Shown here: positions 4,675 through 14,609 of the stretch, piece after piece | Numbering within the stretch: position 1 is the first letter of the stretch | Layout of the letters: each line of letters begins with the position of its first letter | Position numbers and translations under genes: made by a program | Virus record (IMG/VR): IMGVR_UViG_3300045541_000097 | Coordinates: 1 to 32,176 of that record | DNA length: 32,176 nt | Source of the DNA: a virus | Strand: one strand, 5' to 3' | The notes under the pieces: model-generated | Databases searched by the model: none | Told to the model about the DNA's origin: nothing | The model's input: the letters and a program-made list of their open reading frames with translations, nothing else

Positions 4675-5502
4675 ATGACTGATACTGTCAAAACTTTCCC
4701 AAAAATCGTTGGCCTCAAGGTCGTAAGGAAACGATTGACCGATCTCCTATTTCACCCGGAGAACCCGCGCATTCACCCACCAAAAGGGACTCCTGAGTGG
4801 AATACACTTCGGGAGTCCCTTCTTGATGATTACTTCGATCCTATCATCTGGAATCGACGCAACGGTATGCTCGTTGGTGGGCATTACCGAGTTAAAATCT
4901 TCCAAGACGAAGGCGTTCAGGAAGTCGATGTCGTCGAAGTTGATTACGACAACGAAACGCACCTTGCTCGTTTGTTTGCTGCGAACAAGGCTCTTGGTAT
5001 TGATGACCAAGATAAGCGAAGAGAGCTTTTCCTTCGTTTGCATGAGATACCTGACTTCAAGGTATCTCTGACAGGTTTCACTACCGAAGAGTTTAATCGA
5101 GTCTGCCTTAATGATGGAGTCAATACTGACGAACTCACTGGACGAGACACCGATGACGAAAAAACTCCAAGGGACTCCACGAAGCTGAACGCCGTGCTTG
5201 CTACTTGCGTCGTTGGCAACATTACTGTCAAAGAGGGGGAGAAGTGGGTTCTCGGCAGACACATCCTATTCTGCGGACCCCTTACTACCACCCGATTCGA
5301 GGACGAGCTTGCAACTCAGCGAGCCAACAATGAGCCGACTGGAATGACGGTTCTTTTCATTCCATGTCCTGATCCTTACATGGCTCTGACTAACCGCGAG
5401 GATGTCATCCTTGTTATGCTTCAACCTGACGAATTCGTCGCATCGCACATCGTCAGCAATTTCGCAATCACCCACCCTGACGAACAGTGCCAGAAACTAT
5501 AA
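4675..5502 (+). CDS. ParB/Srx-like domain protein with eroded DNA methylase tail
   Basis: A 275-residue protein. Residues about 15-105 form a ParB N-terminal-like domain (HPENPRIHPP, then MLVGGHYRVKIFQDEG). About residues 175-200 contain the linker VKEGEKWVLGRHILFCGP, which in ParB-methylase fusions immediately precedes the catalytic TDPPY motif of an adenine or cytosine methyltransferase. Here the expected position reads PCPDPYMAL and no SAM-binding FxGxG segment follows; the protein ends about 75 residues later. It therefore looks like a fusion whose methylase half is truncated or degenerated, perhaps made redundant by the base-modification genes downstream. It overlaps the next start by 16 nt. 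Confidence 0.65.
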   Translation: MTDTVKTFPKIVGLKVVRKRLTDLLFHPENPRIHPPKGTPEWNTLRESLLDDYFDPIIWNRRNGMLVGGHYRVKIFQDEGVQEVDVVEVDYDNETHLARLFAANKALGIDDQDKRRELFLRLHEIPDFKVSLTGFTTEEFNRVCLNDGVNTDELTGRDTDDEKTPRDSTKLNAVLATCVVGNITVKEGEKWVLGRHILFCGPLTTTRFEDELATQRANNEPTGMTVLFIPCPDPYMALTNREDVILVMLQPDEFVASHIVSNFAITHPDEQCQKL

Positions 5503-6380
5503 AGAAAACAGGGGGCGGAGCATTCGACCCCGAGCTACAAGGGCTTCACTTCTTTGCTACTGGTCTCCAGTGGCATCTTCGCGTTTCTGGTGCTGGACAC
5601 AAGAGTTACCTTGTTGCAGTGAACCACATCAGCGAGGGGAAGAAAGGAAACGATGAAATTGAACTCCTGCTCACTATCCCTGATGTTCGCGTGTTTCTTG
5701 ACTCTGGCATCTTTACGCTTTGCGCTGACTACGCTCGAAAGAACGGTCTCCAGCTAGAAGAGGTTTTCGGATACCAACCTGAACAAGTCGATGGCTACGA
5801 AAAGCTCAAGAGCAGATACATTGACCTGATTCGCAGATACGGTGATCGCTTGTGGGGGTATGTCGAGCTTGACATGGGAGGGACGGAAACAAAGATTCGT
5901 GTTCGGTCAGAGCTTGAAGCCATTGGCATCCGTCCTATTCCTGTGTTCCATCCGATGCACGATTCATGGGATTACTATGAAATGCTGCTCAGGCAGTATG
6001 ACCGAATCTGCATCGGTAACATTGTCAATGCGTCACCGAAGACACGATCTCTTGTTCTGACTGAGTGCGCTCGCAGAAAGAGGGCTATCAACTCTAACTG
6101 CTTCATTCATATTCTTGGTTCGTCTGCCAACGGACTAATCACTTCGCTCCAATTTGAGTCTTGCGACTCATCTTCTTGGAATAGCAGACTCCGCTTTCCG
6201 GTGCTGAATAATGTTCACCTTGATGGAAACATCGGTGGGCTTCCTTCGTGGTTCTTGTATGAACAGAACGGCGATCCCGGCGTCATTACCAAGGCAGGTC
6301 TTTCCTGCGCGTATCAACATCATCTGTTTAATCTAGGCAGGGGTGCTTACCTTGCTGAGCTAATCGACCACTCACTATAA
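5487..6380 (+). CDS. dpdA: DpdA/TGT-like DNA guanine transglycosylase
   Basis: A 297-residue protein with the signature of the tRNA-guanine transglycosylase superfamily branch found in phages: VRVFLDSGIFTL (about residues 69-80), YVELDMGG (about 129-136), IGIRPIPVFHP, RICIGNIV and a final IHILGSSANG...FESCDSSSW. DpdA swaps guanine in DNA for a 7-deazaguanine such as preQ0 or its derivative. All precursor genes (folE, queD, queE, queC) follow, which strengthens the call. The start used is GTG 5487, overlapping the upstream gene; an internal start is possible because the N-terminal 20 residues look unstructured. The family assignment is from motifs, and the exact base inserted is inferred from the GAT-QueC next door. 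Confidence 0.75.
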   Translation: MPETIKKTGGGAFDPELQGLHFFATGLQWHLRVSGAGHKSYLVAVNHISEGKKGNDEIELLLTIPDVRVFLDSGIFTLCADYARKNGLQLEEVFGYQPEQVDGYEKLKSRYIDLIRRYGDRLWGYVELDMGGTETKIRVRSELEAIGIRPIPVFHPMHDSWDYYEMLLRQYDRICIGNIVNASPKTRSLVLTECARRKRAINSNCFIHILGSSANGLITSLQFESCDSSSWNSRLRFPVLNNVHLDGNIGGLPSWFLYEQNGDPGVITKAGLSCAYQHHLFNLGRGAYLAELIDHSL

Positions 6381-6382
6381 TC

Positions 6383-7654
6383 ATGTGCGCTATCTTTGGA
6401 GCTATCGGTTCTGACAAAAAGATTCCTCTTAATCGAGTCGAATCTCTGGCGGATGCTGCTTCCAGCCGAGGGAGAGACGGAACCCGGTATCAAAAATTTC
6501 AACTCAGAAACGGAAGAGTTGCCTACCTTGGTAATGCAAGGGCAGCACCAACTACTGAACTCGCTCAAGGCCCATTGCAGCCGTATAACGGGGTTGTCCA
6601 CAACGGGACAATCAGCAATGACAAGGAGCTTGGTGCCGAGGCGGGGGAAATTGATAGCATGGTCTTGTCCCGAGTGCTGGACACGATGACGTTCCCGAGA
6701 TTCATCGAGAGCTTGAAAAAGGTCAAGGGTTCCTATGCTTTGGCCTGTGCCAGTGAAAGCACGGTGTATCTAGCGAGGAACTACAAGCCTCTCTATTATG
6801 TCGAAGTGGACAACGTGGTATGGTTTGCATCTATGCCATACATGCTTGAGCAGGTTCTTCTTCTTGGTCTGAGCGGCATCGCTCCTGTGGAAGTCCCTCC
6901 GTATTCTGCTGTCGATCTCAGGTCGTTTCTCACTCTCCCTGTCGATAGCCGACCAGACAACGAGAACAAGGTCATGGTGATTGCATCCGCTGGACTTGAT
7001 TCTACGGCAGTCGCAGCTCACTACGCAGCTCAAGGAAAGGAAGTCACCTTGCTGCACTTCAAATACGGGTGCGTGGCTCAGACCCGTGAAACTGAGTGTA
7101 TCCAGAAGATCGCTCATGCCATTGAGACAAAGTTTGCAACCAGTTGCAAAGTTCGCTTCATGTCCCTCCCGTATGAACAGATCAAATCATCTTCCCCGAT
7201 TTTGGGCGAGGGTGGCACGATTGCGGGGGGCGTAGAAGGCGCAGAATTTGCGTTTGAGTGGGTGCCAGCAAGGAACTTGCTGATGGTAGCGGCAGCAGTG
7301 GCAACGGCTGAGGCGGAAGGCTACGGCATTGTGTCACTTGGGCTTAACATCGAAGAGAGTGGTGCCTACCCTGACAATGAAGAAGCATTCACCCAAGGTC
7401 TGAATGGGATCATGGCCTATGCTGTCTCTACTCAGGCAAAGGTGCGAATCGAGTGTCCGTTTGATCGTTTCACGAAACGGGAGATCGTTAAGCACGGTCT
7501 GGAGATCGGTGCCCCATTCGAGCACACTTGGTCATGCTATCGCGGCGGGGAAATTGCCTGCGGAGAATGCGGGCCTGATTTTATGCGGCAAATGGCGTTT
7601 CATCGCAACGGAGTGAAAGACCCAATCCCATATAAAAAGCCGTTGACCTTCTAG
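6383..7654 (+). CDS. gat-queC: GAT-QueC: class II amidotransferase fused to 7-cyano-7-deazaguanine synthase
   Basis: A 423-residue fusion. Residues 1 to about 190 are a class II glutamine amidotransferase starting MCAIFGAIG, with Cys2 as the N-terminal nucleophile and VVHNGTISN further on. Residues about 195-410 are QueC, with the PP-loop SAGLDS (202-207) and a zinc site Cys385, Cys393, Cys396. GAT-QueC makes archaeosine (G+) from preQ0 in Crenarchaeota and is linked to deoxyarchaeosine in phage 9g DNA, so a similar product is expected here. The fourth zinc Cys is Asp399. The last 29 residues appear to have been replaced by an invading HNH element (see 7568-8270); the displaced original tail keeps the Cys. 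A palindrome variant lies at codons 251-256. Confidence 0.85.
   Translation: MCAIFGAIGSDKKIPLNRVESLADAASSRGRDGTRYQKFQLRNGRVAYLGNARAAPTTELAQGPLQPYNGVVHNGTISNDKELGAEAGEIDSMVLSRVLDTMTFPRFIESLKKVKGSYALACASESTVYLARNYKPLYYVEVDNVVWFASMPYMLEQVLLLGLSGIAPVEVPPYSAVDLRSFLTLPVDSRPDNENKVMVIASAGLDSTAVAAHYAAQGKEVTLLHFKYGCVAQTRETECIQKIAHAIETKFATSCKVRFMSLPYEQIKSSSPILGEGGTIAGGVEGAEFAFEWVPARNLLMVAAAVATAEAEGYGIVSLGLNIEESGAYPDNEEAFTQGLNGIMAYAVSTQAKVRIECPFDRFTKREIVKHGLEIGAPFEHTWSCYRGGEIACGECGPDFMRQMAFHRNGVKDPIPYKKPLTF
7134..7149. repeat. 16-bp palindrome variant, CCAG centre (intragenic)
   Basis: TTGCAACCAGTTGCAA inside gat-queC, read as FATSCK. One substitution from the consensus, in the central CCGG. Confidence 0.8.
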
Positions 7655-7671
7655 TGTGCTCCGTGTAAGGT
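7643..7671 (+). promoter_or_regulatory. Promoter for the HNH gene, near-leaderless
   Basis: TTGACC (7643-7648), a 17-bp spacer and TAAGGT (7666-7671), overlapping the queC stop. Only TGACG separates the -10 from ATG 7677, so transcription would start at or near the A of the start codon. Confidence 0.5.
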
Positions 7672-7676
7672 TGACG

Positions 7677-8267
7677 ATGCCATTCCCAAAAGACCCAATC
7701 AAAGCAGACGCCTATCGTAAGTTACTAAGTGATCGCATGAAGCGATTGATGGCTGAACGCAAAGGCAAGACCTACAAAGAAATCTATGGAGATCGAGCGG
7801 ATGCAGAATCTTCTAAGAGAATAGAAGCCAATAAAGAAACTTGGAAAGTTTTAGGTCAAAGTCCAGAGCATGTCGAAAGAGGACGACAAGCTGCTTTAGC
7901 TCAAAACAGAAAAGGAAAGACTTACGAAGAAATCTACGGAGAAGGAGCAAAAGAACAAAAAAGAATCAGGCAAGAAACTCACAGATCAAAAATTTATCCA
8001 GAGCGTGAAGGCACTAGAGAAAAACATAATTCAGATTTCAGATACGCCGATTGGAGGACAGCCGTATTTGAACGCGATAATTACACTTGTCAGATTCGTT
8101 CGTGCGGTATTCGCGGTGGTTCTTTACATGCTCATCATATTAAAGAGTGGGCAGTATTTCCTCTGTTCAGGTATGAGGTATGGAATGGCATCACCCTATG
8201 CAAAGAATGCCATAAAAAAGTTCACAGCGGAACAGAACAATTACCCCATGAAGCAAATCTATTCTAA
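7677..8267 (+). CDS. HNH homing endonuclease with NUMOD-like repeats
   Basis: A 196-residue protein. The C-terminal part has the full HNH pattern: WRTAVFERDNYTCQ, HAHHIKEW and ITLCKECHKKVH, with Cys pairs binding zinc. The N-terminal part contains two copies of a module, GKTYKEIYG (about 26-34) and GKTYEEIYG (about 80-88), each followed by a basic helix, resembling the DNA-binding modules of phage homing enzymes. Codons are more A/T-rich than in the flanking que genes. It splits queC from the next gene and has its own promoter, so it is an independent mobile gene and not part of base modification. The start at 7677 is set by the promoter and by good codon usage from there on. Confidence 0.85.
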   Translation: MPFPKDPIKADAYRKLLSDRMKRLMAERKGKTYKEIYGDRADAESSKRIEANKETWKVLGQSPEHVERGRQAALAQNRKGKTYEEIYGEGAKEQKRIRQETHRSKIYPEREGTREKHNSDFRYADWRTAVFERDNYTCQIRSCGIRGGSLHAHHIKEWAVFPLFRYEVWNGITLCKECHKKVHSGTEQLPHEANLF

Positions 8268-8270
8268 TTC

Positions 8271-8339
8271 TGCGGACCTTGTTACATGCGGAAAACTGCA
8301 TTCGACAGAAACGGAGCCAAAGACCCTGTGATGCCATGA
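8271..8339 (+). pseudogene. Displaced original 3' end of queC
   Basis: Read from TGC 8271, this frame gives CGPCYMRKTAF followed by a tail matching the end of the intact queC and stops at TGA 8337-8339. It keeps the fourth zinc-binding Cys (CGPC) that the intact queC copy lacks (CGPD). Its stop overlaps the ATG at 8336, the ATGA coupling used throughout this genome, which shows it was once the real end of queC in the operon. It starts 3 nt after the HNH stop and has no start of its own. Confidence 0.75.
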
Positions 8340-8557
8340 GCAAACCAAGCGATATTCAAGTGGGTGGAGACCACTACAAGAAATTCAAAATCCAGCCATA
8401 CGAATTCATTACTCTCAACGGCATTGGTTTCCTTGAGGGTTGTGTCATTAAGCGTATGTGCCGACACGGCAGCAAGAATGGACTCGAAGACTTGCTAAAA
8501 GCCAAACACGAAATTGATCTTCTCATCCAAACAAAATACCCCGATCAAGCAACATGA
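8336..8557 (+). CDS. DUF3310 (SaV-like) protein
   Basis: A 73-residue protein matching DUF3310 throughout: GGDHYKKFKIQPYEFI, FLEGCVIKRMCRHGSKNG and LEDLLKAKHEIDLLI. Small proteins of this family are common in tailed phages near nucleotide metabolism genes; their biochemical role is not settled. The ATG overlaps the stop of the displaced queC tail, and its own stop overlaps queD by ATGA, so it was originally embedded in the que operon. Confidence 0.8.
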   Translation: MSKPSDIQVGGDHYKKFKIQPYEFITLNGIGFLEGCVIKRMCRHGSKNGLEDLLKAKHEIDLLIQTKYPDQAT

Positions 8558-9006
8558 AAACCTGCTCAAAGACCTACCCCGACTTTCCCTTTGCCCACCG
8601 CCAGCATAAGCACAGCGGACACTGCCGATTCATCCACGGCCACAACTGGACATTCACTTTTGAGTTCGCATGTGACCGCGACAACGGACAAGGATTCGTA
8701 ATCGACTTTGGTCGGTTGAAGTGGCTCAAGGCATGGCTCGAAAAGCACTTCGACCACACCTGCGTTCTCAATCACGATGACCCGCTTGTCGGTCAGTTTC
8801 ATAGCGTCGGCGGGGATGACGCATGGGACATTACTGTCGTTCCTGACGCATCCTGCGAAGGTATTGCTCAGTTCGTGTTCGAGCAGGTCAATGCCCTCCT
8901 CGCCAGCGATCAGGTGCTCGAAGGTGAAGACGTTGGACGGGGCATCCGTGTTGTTTCGCTTGTCGTCTATGAAGACAGCAAAAACTCCGCCAAATACTCA
9001 GAGTGA
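8554..9006 (+). CDS. queD: 6-carboxy-tetrahydropterin synthase QueD
   Basis: A 150-residue protein of the PTPS/QueD family. The zinc histidines are in FAHRQ and HGHNW, the catalytic Cys is in SGHCRFIHGH, and FDHTCVLN and SCEGIAQFVFEQ are the later conserved blocks. QueD turns dihydroneopterin triphosphate, made by FolE, into 6-carboxy-5,6,7,8-tetrahydropterin, the substrate of QueE. It is coupled to the upstream DUF3310 gene by ATGA. The length fits the family. Confidence 0.9.
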   Translation: MKTCSKTYPDFPFAHRQHKHSGHCRFIHGHNWTFTFEFACDRDNGQGFVIDFGRLKWLKAWLEKHFDHTCVLNHDDPLVGQFHSVGGDDAWDITVVPDASCEGIAQFVFEQVNALLASDQVLEGEDVGRGIRVVSLVVYEDSKNSAKYSE

Positions 9007-9113
9007 TCCTCTGGCCTATGCAAAAACTCAATTAGAGGCTTGCCTAGGAACTAAAGTTGAAGTATATTCTCTACCAACCCCGGAAGGGGAGCTACCCCTT
9101 GATTTCACAATTT
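9007..9113 (+). other. Spacer between queD and queE with protein-like frame
   Basis: This 107-bp gap is unusual among otherwise overlapping genes. The +1 frame relative to queD stays open across it and reads like protein (DPLAYAKTQLEACLG, then VEVYSLPTPEGELPL) into queE, but it has no ATG, GTG or TTG start of its own. It may be a gene remnant or a queD extension lost by frameshift. Confidence 0.35.
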
Positions 9114-9833
9114 ATGAAGACGTATCCAGTCAACGAAATGTTCTACACATGGCAGGGTGAAGGTATTCACGCTGGCCGTGCTGCATTTTTTGTTCGTCTG
9201 CATGGATGCCCCATCAAGTGCCCTTGGTGTGACTCTGCCGGGACTTGGCATCCTAAATACGTCCCATCAAACGTGACGAGGATGACTGCCGCAGAGATCG
9301 GCAAAGCAGCCAGAGAGACGGATGCTCAATTTGTGGTGGTGACTGGCGGTGAGCCTACAATTCACGATCTCCGTGACTTGACTGCCTGCTTGTCCGAGAG
9401 TCAGGACGAATCGCACGCTTCAAGGATTCTTCCATGTCATCTCGAAACGAGCGGAGCCTTTGAGATCAAGGGCGATTTCTCTTTCATTACGGTGTCGCCT
9501 AAGCGGGAGCGCCTGCCCCTTGACGAGAATCTGGAAAAGGCGAGTGAGATCAAGCTCATCATTGACAGTCCAGAAGCGTTCACTGAATGGGACGCATACC
9601 TCGACAATCACTATTTCAAAAAGGCCAAGCAGTTCTGTTCTGTTTGGCTGCACCCTGAGTGGTCAAAGCGGGCTGACAAGGAAGTCCTTACCACTATCAG
9701 CAACGCGGTGAAGCGTTACCCGGCTCTGTATCGAGCGGGCTGGCAGCTTCACAAACTGTATCAAGTGGACAGCTTGGACGCACGCTCCCGTCCTATTGTT
9801 CCACTTGGCGGCGACATCAACAAAGGATATTGA
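9114..9833 (+). CDS. queE: 7-carboxy-7-deazaguanine synthase QueE (radical SAM)
   Basis: A 239-residue radical SAM enzyme. The iron-sulfur motif GCPIKCPWC places Cys at 32, 36 and 39 when counted from ATG 9114; FYTWQGEG precedes it as in all QueE proteins, and VVVTGGEPT follows at about 77-85. It converts 6-carboxytetrahydropterin to 7-carboxy-7-deazaguanine for QueC. ATG 9114 is preferred to an in-frame upstream start because the conserved sequence begins at MKTYPVNEMFYTWQ. Confidence 0.9.
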   Translation: MKTYPVNEMFYTWQGEGIHAGRAAFFVRLHGCPIKCPWCDSAGTWHPKYVPSNVTRMTAAEIGKAARETDAQFVVVTGGEPTIHDLRDLTACLSESQDESHASRILPCHLETSGAFEIKGDFSFITVSPKRERLPLDENLEKASEIKLIIDSPEAFTEWDAYLDNHYFKKAKQFCSVWLHPEWSKRADKEVLTTISNAVKRYPALYRAGWQLHKLYQVDSLDARSRPIVPLGGDINKGY

Positions 9834-9837
9834 CCAC

Positions 9838-10446
9838 ATGAGCAGAGACCTAAACAACCTCCCAACAAAGCAAATCGAAGAAGTGCTCGCATTCCTTGGC
9901 GAAAAGCCTAGGGCGGGTATGGCTGACACTCCAAAGCGTTTTCTCAAAGCCTTGCTCGAAATGACGGCAGGCTATGACGAAGACCCAGCCGAGCATCTCC
10001 GCAAAGAGTTTCAACTCAGTGACTCGGAGGATAACACGGTCAAGCCATACGACCAGATCATCCTATCCGGTGGAATTGACTTTGTGAGTATGTGCGAACA
10101 TCACATGCTCCCATTCGAGGGGATTATCCACATTGGTTATCTCCCGAATGCTGAATCTTCCGACTCCAAGGTTGTCGGTCTCTCGAAGTTTGCTCGCATG
10201 GCCGAAGGGTTTGCTCGACGGTTTCAAGTGCAAGAGCGACTGACACAACAAATCGCAGACACTATTCAGGAAGTTGTTCGGCCTGCTGGCGTTGGCGTTG
10301 TCGTAAAAGCTCGACACACATGCCAGTGCTATCGCGGCGTCAAGAAGAGGGGGTGGATGATTACATCCTCGATGACCGGACTGTTCCGTGAAGAAGCTCA
10401 GACCAGAATGGAGTTCTTGAAACTCATCGAAATCGGAGACAAATGA
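9838..10446 (+). CDS. folE: GTP cyclohydrolase I FolE
   Basis: A 202-residue protein with the family's zinc and catalytic signatures: SMCEHHMLPFEG, KFARMAEGFARRFQVQERLT and KARHTCQCYRGV. It makes 7,8-dihydroneopterin triphosphate from GTP, the first step toward preQ0. With QueD, QueE, GAT-QueC and the DpdA-like protein it completes a self-sufficient route from GTP to a modified DNA base. The stop overlaps the terminase small subunit start by ATGA, linking base modification and packaging genes in one operon. Confidence 0.93.
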   Translation: MSRDLNNLPTKQIEEVLAFLGEKPRAGMADTPKRFLKALLEMTAGYDEDPAEHLRKEFQLSDSEDNTVKPYDQIILSGGIDFVSMCEHHMLPFEGIIHIGYLPNAESSDSKVVGLSKFARMAEGFARRFQVQERLTQQIADTIQEVVRPAGVGVVVKARHTCQCYRGVKKRGWMITSSMTGLFREEAQTRMEFLKLIEIGDK

Positions 10447-12923: not shown

Positions 12924-12999
12924 TGCGGGATGGAGCAGATGGTAGCTCGGCTGGCTCATAACCAGTAGGTCGTTGGTTCGAGTCCAACTCCCGCAACCA
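12924..12999 (+). tRNA. Initiator-type tRNA-Met (CAT), CCA encoded
   Basis: A 76-nt cloverleaf: acceptor TGCGGGA/TCCCGCA, D stem GAGC/GCTC, anticodon arm GCTGG-CTCATAA-CCAGT, T arm GTTGG-TTCGAGT-CCAAC, discriminator A, CCA encoded. TGGAGC after the acceptor, giving the A11:U24 pair, and overall similarity to bacterial fMet tRNA mark it as initiator-type. Two hallmarks are weakened: position 1:72 is a T:A pair, not a mismatch, and the anticodon stem has only two of the three consecutive G:C pairs. Confidence 0.85.
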
Positions 13000-13401
13000 A
13001 ATGGGCATCGAGCGGCGTTCGGACTCACAAGGTTTCTTATGCGTGATCTGCGAAAAGCTAAAAGCCAAGCAGAGTGCCCGCCTTGGTTGCAAAGTTCGGG
13101 TTTCGTAATAGCGATAAAACAAGCGAAGCGGTCAAAGTATAAGTCCAATGTGCATCAGACCCTAGTAGCCTGCGACACTTCCGCCGAGACTTACGAAGCT
13201 CGAACTTTGCAACCGGTTGCAAAAAGTTTAGTCATAGATGGCAGCAAGTGGATGGCAGTGATGATTCTGAAACATGGGACTGGATGCAGTCGTTGTAATT
13301 CCAGCAGTTAGCTCACTGACGCTTCTTCGGTTCAACGTAAACGCCACGCGGGGCTTTGAATTCCGCTTGTTGCCGTCTGTGACTCGTTACAGACAATTTT
13401 C
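13000..13401 (+). other. Non-coding stretch between tRNA-Met and tmRNA
   Basis: About 400 bp without a convincing gene or tRNA. GGGCA just after the tRNA can pair with TGCCC at about 13076-13080, closing a hairpin domain; the motif GGCATCGAG recurs just after tRNA-Lys. An exact palindrome lies at 13207-13222. It may be transcript spacer or part of another structured RNA. Confidence 0.4.
13207..13222. repeat. 16-bp palindrome, exact copy (RNA gene region)
   Basis: TTGCAACCGGTTGCAA in the non-coding stretch 180 bp upstream of the tmRNA. Confidence 0.95.
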
Positions 13402-13814
13402 GGGGCCGTCTTGGTTTCGACTTTGTTGGTTAATTGGTAAGTGCATGTCCGAGAAGTCTAGTTGGCTCGGTTATCAATCTGGACAAAACACTAAATGGCA
13501 ACGATTCTGACATCGACAGCCTCATCGCTCAAGCTGAGTCCATCAAGGACAACGCCGACGCGGTGCTTGCAAAGTTCGCTGCGAAAAGCCGCAAGGCTGA
13601 TCTCCAGCTTGCCTAAGCAAGAGGTTTGGCAGTTCTCCTACTCTTGAACTGCTTCTGCTTGAAAAGCTGCCCTTACGGAGTTTGCGTGTCTCCTCTATTA
13701 AGGTAAGACGAAGACCTGCTACGCGCCACCAGCTTAATAATCGGTGGAAAACATGTGTAGAATTTGCCAGTGTGCTAATAGAGGACAGGGGTTCAACTCC
13801 CCTCGGCTCCCCCA
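13402..13814 (+). ncRNA. ssrA: tmRNA with a predicted 39-codon tag
   Basis: The 5' end GGGGCCG plus TCTTGGTTTCGACT is the conserved tmRNA start, and the 3' end has a T arm AGGGG-TTCAACT-CCCCT, the acceptor strand CGGCTCC and an encoded CCA. The seven acceptor pairs close perfectly with a G3:U70 wobble, the alanine identity element. Pseudoknot 1 is visible: CCGAG/CTCGG (13449-13453, 13466-13470) with GTCTAG/CTGGAC (13456-13461, 13479-13484). About 12 nt later the tag frame begins GGC AAC GAT (GND, 13497) and runs 39 codons to TAA 13614-13616, ending ADLQLA. Typical tags are about 10 residues ending in LAA. The discriminator is C where A is usual. tmRNA rescues stalled ribosomes and marks the products for proteolysis. 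Confidence 0.85.
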
Positions 13815-13867: not shown

Positions 13868-14371
13868 ATGTCTAAATCTCTTGCTAAAGCAGTTTTTGAA
13901 AAAGGTTATCGAGTTACTGAGCTTGGTAATGTCTTAAATAGTAAAGGGGTTCCACTTTCTCTTAGAGAAAGCCCAGAGGGTTACTATACGTTCAGTGTTA
14001 GAAAACTTAATGGGGTTGTAACTCCAATGAGAGTTTGCCAATTAGCAGCTTACCAAAAGTTTGGTGACTCCTATATGGTCGATGGAGTAGTAGCAAGGCA
14101 TCTTGACGATGATTCTCTAAACGATGCTCTCGACAATATAGGGATTGGAACTCAGGGGCAGAATGCAATGGATCGACCAGAAATTGATCGCAGAGAGCAC
14201 GCAGCAAAAGGAAATCAGAAGCATAGCCCTGAGTTCATTGCTTTGCTGAAAGCAGATCGAGAGCAGGGAATGTCTTATAAAGAGTTGTGCGAAAAGCACG
14301 GAATCTGCAAAGCAACCTGCTCCTATTATCTTAGTAACAGTGCGAAGCGCAAGTCATTCACATTTTCTTAA
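13868..14371 (+). CDS. HNH-type homing endonuclease with C-terminal helix-turn-helix
   Basis: A 167-residue protein. The central part (LAAYQKFGDSYMVD, RHLDDDSLNDALDNI, GTQGQNAMD) follows the HNH_3/AP2-like homing endonuclease pattern of a His-Asp turn, an Asn-rich turn and a GT..N helix. The C-terminal 40 residues (MSYKELCEKHGICKATCSYYL) form a helix-turn-helix that would bind the target. Codons are A/T-rich compared with neighbours. It lies immediately behind the tmRNA in an otherwise gene-free RNA region and brings its own promoter, like the HNH gene in queC. The HNH core is less canonical than in that gene, so activity is uncertain. Confidence 0.65.
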   Translation: MSKSLAKAVFEKGYRVTELGNVLNSKGVPLSLRESPEGYYTFSVRKLNGVVTPMRVCQLAAYQKFGDSYMVDGVVARHLDDDSLNDALDNIGIGTQGQNAMDRPEIDRREHAAKGNQKHSPEFIALLKADREQGMSYKELCEKHGICKATCSYYLSNSAKRKSFTFS

Positions 14372-14533: not shown

Positions 14534-14609
14534 GCAGGCGTAGCTCAGTGGTAGAGCAGCGGAGCTTTAATCCGTTGGTCGTTGGTTCGAGTCCAGCCGA
14601 CCTGCACCA
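14534..14609 (+). tRNA. tRNA-Lys (TTT)-like, atypical
   Basis: Acceptor GCAGGCG, D arm GCTCAGTGGTAGAGC, anticodon arm GCGGA-GCTTTAA-TCCGT, T arm GTTGG-TTCGAGT-CCAGC and encoded ACCA. Compared with a normal tRNA-Lys it has C instead of the universal U at position 33 (and G32), and the 3' acceptor strand CGACCTGC carries one extra A that must bulge for the stem to close. The TTT anticodon follows from loop position. It may be a decaying or functionally altered tRNA. Confidence 0.7.

Follow-up and report, generated by a model that had tools for sequence, protein, structure and literature searches.

The window, that is, the whole 32,176-nt stretch of DNA analysed here, is a virus contig with a terminase, and it carries a tmRNA (ssrA) gene whose 39-residue tag contains a peptide core that recurs in dozens of phage contigs of IMG/VR, again within tmRNA tags. 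The initial annotation had taken this tag for an isolated peculiarity, but it is one member of a recurrent class. Sequence comparison identifies 13402-13814 as a tmRNA, and we consider it very probable that this is a real tmRNA carrying a long tag selected as a peptide. The best reading, to which we give a probability of roughly 0.6, is that of a functional phage tmRNA whose tag places a selected helical module ahead of a C-terminal degron.

Searching the window with Rfam covariance models (cmscan, Rfam 15), the check proposed with the initial annotation, confirmed the tmRNA at full length: RF00023 (tmRNA) matched the + strand at 13402-13814 over model positions 1-374 of 374, with 94 bits (E 1.2e-35) against a gathering score of 47 bits. 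The acceptor with G3:U70, the T arm and pseudoknot 1 (PK1) named beforehand can all be read directly in the sequence (Table 1). The tRNA-like domain comprises a 7-bp acceptor with G3.U70 and a T arm, and both PK1 stems are present (CCGAG/CTCGG and GTCTAG/CTGGAC). The PK2-4 region aligned weakly to RF00023 in the window match, the MFE of the whole RNA was only slightly better than that of shuffles (z -1.76), and predicted folding of the stop-codon hairpin (13608-13621) was no better than that of shuffles. The discriminator base is A in 28 of the 30 aligned rows, T in one and C in the window; C73 is atypical, A73 being typical of tmRNA without defining it, and the substitution could mean weaker alanylation or a sequence error.

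Table 1. Features of the tmRNA locus, in positions of the window
Feature	Position	Strand	Basis
Phage tmRNA (ssrA) gene, 413 nt	13402..13814	+	RF00023, full length
Acceptor stem 5' strand GGGGCCG, with G3 of G3.U70	13402..13408	+	7/7 pairs with 13804-13810
P2 5' strand, partner 13775-13783	13421..13429	+	30-row alignment
Pseudoknot 1	13449..13484	+	stem 1 13449-13453/13466-13470; stem 2 13456-13461/13479-13484
Tag reading frame, 39 codons	13497..13613	+	translation; frame and boundaries kept in relatives
Conserved tag core, 17 codons, LIAQAESIKDNADAVLA	13521..13571	+	pN/pS test, leave-one-out profile
Hairpin CTTGC-CTAA-GCAAG, H5-like, tag stop TAA (13614-13616) in loop	13608..13621	+	sequence, predicted fold
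P2 3' strand	13775..13783	+	30-row alignment
T arm AGGGG-TTCAACT-CCCCT	13787..13803	+	RF00023 alignment, direct reading
Acceptor 3' strand CGGCTCC, discriminator C73, encoded CCA	13804..13814	+	direct sequence reading
HNH endonuclease gene, directly downstream of the tmRNA	13868..14371	+	PHROG phrog_59, E 2e-16

Across an alignment of 30 RNA rows, the stop codon in register, the A at -4 and the G3.U70 pair were each present in 30/30 rows, and the resume codon was GCN or GGC in 29, the remaining row being gapped. The named structure was paired in 81.7% of cells, as opposed to 44-57% for slid versions, with double changes at 23 of the 32 tested pairs and a covariation score of 0.388 vs 0.126 in shuffles, none of which (0/500) scored as high. 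Pairing reached 100% of cells in the T-arm helix, 96% in PK1 stem 1, with double changes, and 81.9% in P2, where double changes occurred in 8 of the 9 pairs. PK1 stem 2 was paired in just 31.8% of cells, the rows being gapped and poorly aligned there.

The tag frame opens at the resume codon GGC (13497-13499), with an A at -4, and closes at the TAA at 13614-13616, giving the 39-residue peptide GNDSDIDSLIAQAESIKDNADAVLAKFAAKSRKADLQLA. The frame originally described, of 39 codons beginning GND and ending ADLQLA, is thereby upheld, and the covariance model, which might have placed the resume codon elsewhere and given a short tag, sets it at the same GGC (13497). At its C-terminus (..KADLQLA) the window tag ends in QLA, whereas textbook tags end in LAA and the usual ending is ..LLAA. 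The tag appears to be laid out as a short polar start (GND..), a conserved helical module ([LI][LI]A[QE]AExIx[ND]NADxxL) and a hydrophobic C-terminus. AlphaFold2, run on the 30-row alignment, returned a single helix over tag residues 3-38 (mean pLDDT 85), which is weak evidence because the tag is a lone peptide, and AlphaFold commonly models such peptides as helices. Amphipathicity as a common theme of the tags fails for the window tag, 65% of whose own shuffles were equally amphipathic; compared with shuffles, 12 of 55 tags fell below 0.05.

We define class A as phage tmRNAs with a tag of ~31-45 residues and the core [LI][LI]A[QE]AExIx[ND]NAD. A scan of viral contigs with a tmRNA 5'-end pattern recovered, among others, a 444-nt tmRNA in L145 that ARAGORN had missed, and LxAQAExIxxNADxxL occurs both in its tag and in that of the window. 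Scanning for AQAE-x4-NAD returned at least 119 stretches and yielded further contigs with the motif inside a tmRNA. The pattern A[EQ]AEYIxNNA hit viral contigs at 101 sites, of which a script with a strict rule assigned 69 to a tmRNA context and 10 to the ends of loci, leaving 22 unbinned. When the last 45 residues were viewed, the 69 were all of the tag type; none of the 32 edge and other rows had an open frame longer than 54 residues, and at all 22 unbinned sites the tag pattern lay within a short open frame. In one of these 22 (L474), reading by eye showed an acceptor of tmRNA type and an odd T loop, with a tag of 45 residues. The 45-residue class-A tags of L474 and L473 are the longest found, and the T-loop sequence of these tmRNAs is unusual. 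Two further sequences (L352 and L348) are class-A-like and fall outside the regular expression used for collecting the class.

Two tag-blind scans, combining TGGTTTCGAC, a spacer of 356-417 and GGGTTCRANTCCC, gave 66 and 58 stretches, and with a script run over the loci they yielded 107 loci with 7/7 acceptor pairs, corresponding to 87 distinct RNAs, the window included. This sample is biased toward long RNAs by design, so that the share of tags with at least 28 residues (54 of 75) is length-biased; short tags, such as ANDNVEFEYALAA, occur in it as well. Besides class A, further long tags recur in it: class B (..APSVxEADAILAxxGYxx..LAA), class C (AKxITNAVxSVKSFVTNxAESxFxxEDELCLMAA), class D (GNILxKIxNKVKSLF..) and class E (GDxSLxGLxIDWHLA...YAYA). 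The class E tags, of 35-38 residues and without the class-A core, were seen in L341, L350, L351, L359, L369, L370 and L422.

The window belongs to class A by tag length and core, as seen in both the alignment and a leave-one-out profile: built from the 29 other tags and searched against the six-frame open frames of the window, the profile found the window tag at E 1.2e-7 and its next match at 0.91. The best BLOSUM62 score of the window tag to the family was 67, and the maximum over 1000 shuffles 45. Its core is identical at 12-13 of 17 positions to the two nearest relatives and at 6-10 of 17 to the others, the nearest of all (L316; 13 of 17) having a tag of 41 residues. Residues A13, I16, N19 and A20 (window tag numbering) are nearly fixed. 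At 413 nt the window RNA is shorter than most relatives, those compared measuring 442-446 nt, yet its tag is longer. All 25 class-A records, the window included, have an RF00023 match above the cut-off, and each has a single tag match, lying within that RF00023 match. Self-mimicry, in which the tag would copy a phage protein, thus gained no support, the tmRNA being the sole match in 25/25 records.

Among 32 distinct class-A cores, pN/pS was 0.23 in the tag frame, the two shifted frames giving 1.0 and 1.9, and 0 of 20,000 permutations reached the observed excess of variation at third positions. Because class A was gathered partly via a peptide motif, which favours low pN, we ran the test again with the RNAs from the tag-blind scans, a step that removes the bias only in part. 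Here a tag was called in 90 of the 107 loci (17 were dropped, having no tag by the rule), the 75 distinct RNAs were paired, each pair was assigned to a bin according to its RNA identity outside the tag, and the tags themselves were aligned as DNA. For pairs that share ancestry and are thus not independent, pN/pS was 0.59 at 55-65% RNA identity (1780 pairs), 0.39 at 65-75% (202 pairs), 0.38 at 75-90% (57 pairs) and 0.20 at 90-99.5% (15 pairs), vs 1.0-1.8 in shifted frames. By these comparisons, the tag core is under purifying selection as a peptide across phages of differing lineages, and the earlier description of the tag as unusually long and coding-like gains strength from both the relatives and the selection on the peptide.

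Patterns of the class-A motif had no match in genome_contigs (84,980 species, contigs of at least 3 kb). Against 50,697 GenBank phage records, tblastn with the tags found none bar one chance match (E 9), short peptides limiting this method; the class-B tag search gave no match, and neither the window nor the tmRNA DNA matched GenBank phages. Three terminase relatives (L001-L003, 47-48% identity) had no tmRNA in the stretches examined. No common phage lineage emerged for class A: a relative of the window terminase occurs in 0 of the 24 other class-A records, while 11 of all 25 contain a T4-type capsid, and the tag is therefore present in different phage lineages.

Candidate partner genes were sought in the same records. 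An SmpB gene was found in 0 of 32 long-tag phage records (15 class-A, including the window, and 17 other), many of them fragments. As to the earlier suggestion that the phage could rescue ribosomes on its own terms, it therefore most likely depends on the SmpB, AlaRS and ribosomes of its host. None of the 25 class-A records, several of which are fragments, contained a phage SspB-like adaptor (PF04386), though the host may have an SspB, and a ClpP family member was present in only 3 of 15 class-A records, many again being fragments. No shared neighbour gene emerged as tag partner, the best recurrence near the tmRNA being 13 of 72 loci. A Pfam search with the tag returned no family, and its PDB matches (a designed TIM barrel, E 0.0028, and a protease, 0.69) were taken as chance.

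We propose that the tmRNA would be expressed in infection. If it works as known tmRNAs do, it would be charged with alanine and would serve, together with the SmpB and ribosomes of the host, in the rescue of stalled ribosomes. The C-terminus of the tag would then be a degron of the ClpXP type. The middle part may act as a docking element from which an adaptor or protease, of host or phage, takes over tagged proteins, much as SspB reads the E. coli tag, through another motif. Being conserved in many environmental phages that are otherwise unrelated, this middle part probably does more than the usual degradation signal. A docking role, making the tag a composite degron, would be the most likely of several readings, and we place it a little short of an even chance; the explanation as a whole, combining a tmRNA, a selected long tag and docking, is mildly favoured. 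The initial proposal of "extra degradation or targeting information" is supported only in so far as the additional residues are kept at the protein level. More tentatively, these may be a distinct kind of trans-translation tag, shared by T4-like and unrelated phages, in which a conserved helical module between the tag start and the C-terminal degron is read by a dedicated host or phage partner, rerouting rescued chains in infection. If true, standard annotation misses a distinct kind of tag, since ARAGORN does not report such long ones. A core that is conserved over many phages, selected at the peptide level and without a match in the bacterial genome collection indicates that phage tmRNAs carry extra information, and the question of why phages have tmRNA becomes testable.

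Two alternatives accept the tmRNA and explain its tag differently. Tag length, rather than a partner, may be what matters. The ribosome exit tunnel holds 30-40 residues, and a tag of 31-45 residues would roughly fill it and provide a long protease handle, clearing stuck chains and letting unfolding start, with the core keeping a helix or a tunnel-compatible path. Such a role would fit the 31-45 residues to which class-A tags hold, the length of other tag-blind classes and the prediction of one helix, but length alone does not predict near-fixed A13, I16, N19 and A20, and we consider it rather unlikely. Less likely again, the tag could be mainly a phage effector or sorting label, with tagged host fragments, or the peptide by itself, acting on a host factor, for example by occupying a host adaptor or protease or by redirecting products. 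The motif is conserved as a peptide and was found in phage contigs only, with no match in genome_contigs, and some tags lack an LAA end (..QLA in the window, ..LLT and ..MFV in others), all of which an effector would accommodate. Most class-A tags, however, end hydrophobic and in A, as proteolysis tags do, and the peptide is accounted for neither by a Pfam family nor by a convincing sequence match in the PDB.

Two further alternatives question whether the tag, or the RNA, is functional at all. An open frame arising by chance, with a short real tag and a coincidental likeness to other tags, could be argued from the 39 codons, which exceed the 8-35 residues quoted for known tags in the excerpted text of a review (PMC8012679). 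This is contradicted by the alignment, in which stop and resume codons are in register in relatives, by the leave-one-out profile (E 1.2e-7) and by the frame-specific selection, and its probability is very small. A decayed or passenger tmRNA, drifting as a relic in this phage, would account for C73, a loose 3' half, an untypical tag end, the 413 nt set against 442-446 in relatives and the silence of ARAGORN. Yet the RF00023 match is full-length, the acceptor, T arm and PK1 are intact, the 39-codon frame is open and tag length accounts for the ARAGORN miss, leaving a relic improbable.

The favoured reading, a functional tmRNA with a selected module ahead of a degron, can be set beside systems already described. 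The one-piece tmRNA of bacteria (RF00023), of which E. coli ssrA is an example, shares with the window RNA the tRNA-like domain with G3.U70, PK1, a resume codon after an A at -4, an in-frame stop and a hydrophobic C-terminus. The E. coli tag, (A)ANDENYALAA, has 10 residues vs 39 in the window, which also has a conserved internal module and C73; unlike bacterial tmRNA, the window RNA is phage-borne, and the search of long-tag records found no SmpB gene. Actinophage tmRNAs, namely those of the Mycobacterium phage Bxz1 group, with a 25-residue tag, and of Gordonia phage GodonK (AEADVVVSDSDIAEIEAYANEAALV, 25 residues), are likewise phage-borne with an acidic tag longer than usual, but their tags are shorter than that of the window and, by eye, without the LLAxAExI..NAD core. 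The GodonK tmRNA is an unannotated 529-nt match (90.3 bits) at 206-734 of L465 (MK620899.1), a span within which the record annotates a tRNA-His. Another unannotated match, of cyanobacterial type (128 bits), lies in an annotation gap of Synechococcus phage S-CAM1 at 657-925 of L464 (HQ634177.1).

Methylophage Melnitz also encodes a tmRNA, which according to the excerpts of its description is permuted and two-piece, unlike that of the window, and for which the authors propose host-protein tagging in infection; a long-tag class is not described in those excerpts (PMC9004378). Pseudomonas phage pf16, in the passages of its report that we drew on, encodes an SspB adaptor (PMC5587285) and so also acts on the ssrA-tag proteolysis pathway. 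It does so through an adaptor protein, with no phage tmRNA; in the present case a phage tmRNA is there and the search for SspB found none. More generally, a conserved long-tag class is not described in the excerpts of the open-licence PMC literature on phage tmRNA (PMC4131195, PMC9004378, PMC12656738, PMC9569102, PMC5587285).

ARAGORN reported no tmRNA in the window, and its matches there from another run were artefacts of circular or permuted mode. In a benchmark of 81 distinct RNAs, where we may have called some tags wrongly in the middle bins, ARAGORN gave the same tag for 7 of 11 RNAs with tags of at most 20 residues, 4 of 11 with 21-29, 5 of 6 with 30-31 and 7 of 14 with 32-33, and the correct tag for 0 of 39 with at least 34. 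It appears to limit tag length, and genes with tags of 34 or more codons therefore escape annotation. A published phage tmRNA survey names ARAGORN in its excerpted text (PMC9004378), and as the program fails on long-tag RNAs, phage tmRNAs are probably under-counted.

Elsewhere on the contig, cmscan places a tRNA-Met at 12924, and a tRNA-like RF00005 match (14535-14605, +, 46.5 bits) not reported by ARAGORN has a loop, GCUUUAA, in which, by eye, UUU would be the anticodon and C would occupy position 33. Genes at 5487-10446 resemble a queuine tRNA-ribosyltransferase, QueC and GTP cyclohydrolase, which suggests 7-deazaguanine DNA modification. A palindrome, TTGCAACCGGTTGCAA, recurs at 19 sites between 476 and 31910 with at most 2 mismatches (11 perfect; 0.01 expected by chance), spaced every 0.2-4 kb over the contig in an arrangement resembling a set of phage operators or stoperators. 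One site (13207-13222) lies 180 nt upstream of the tmRNA, and an inverted repeat at 13085-13214, also upstream (24 nt, 92% complementary, 82 nt apart), contains half and full palindrome sites in its arms.
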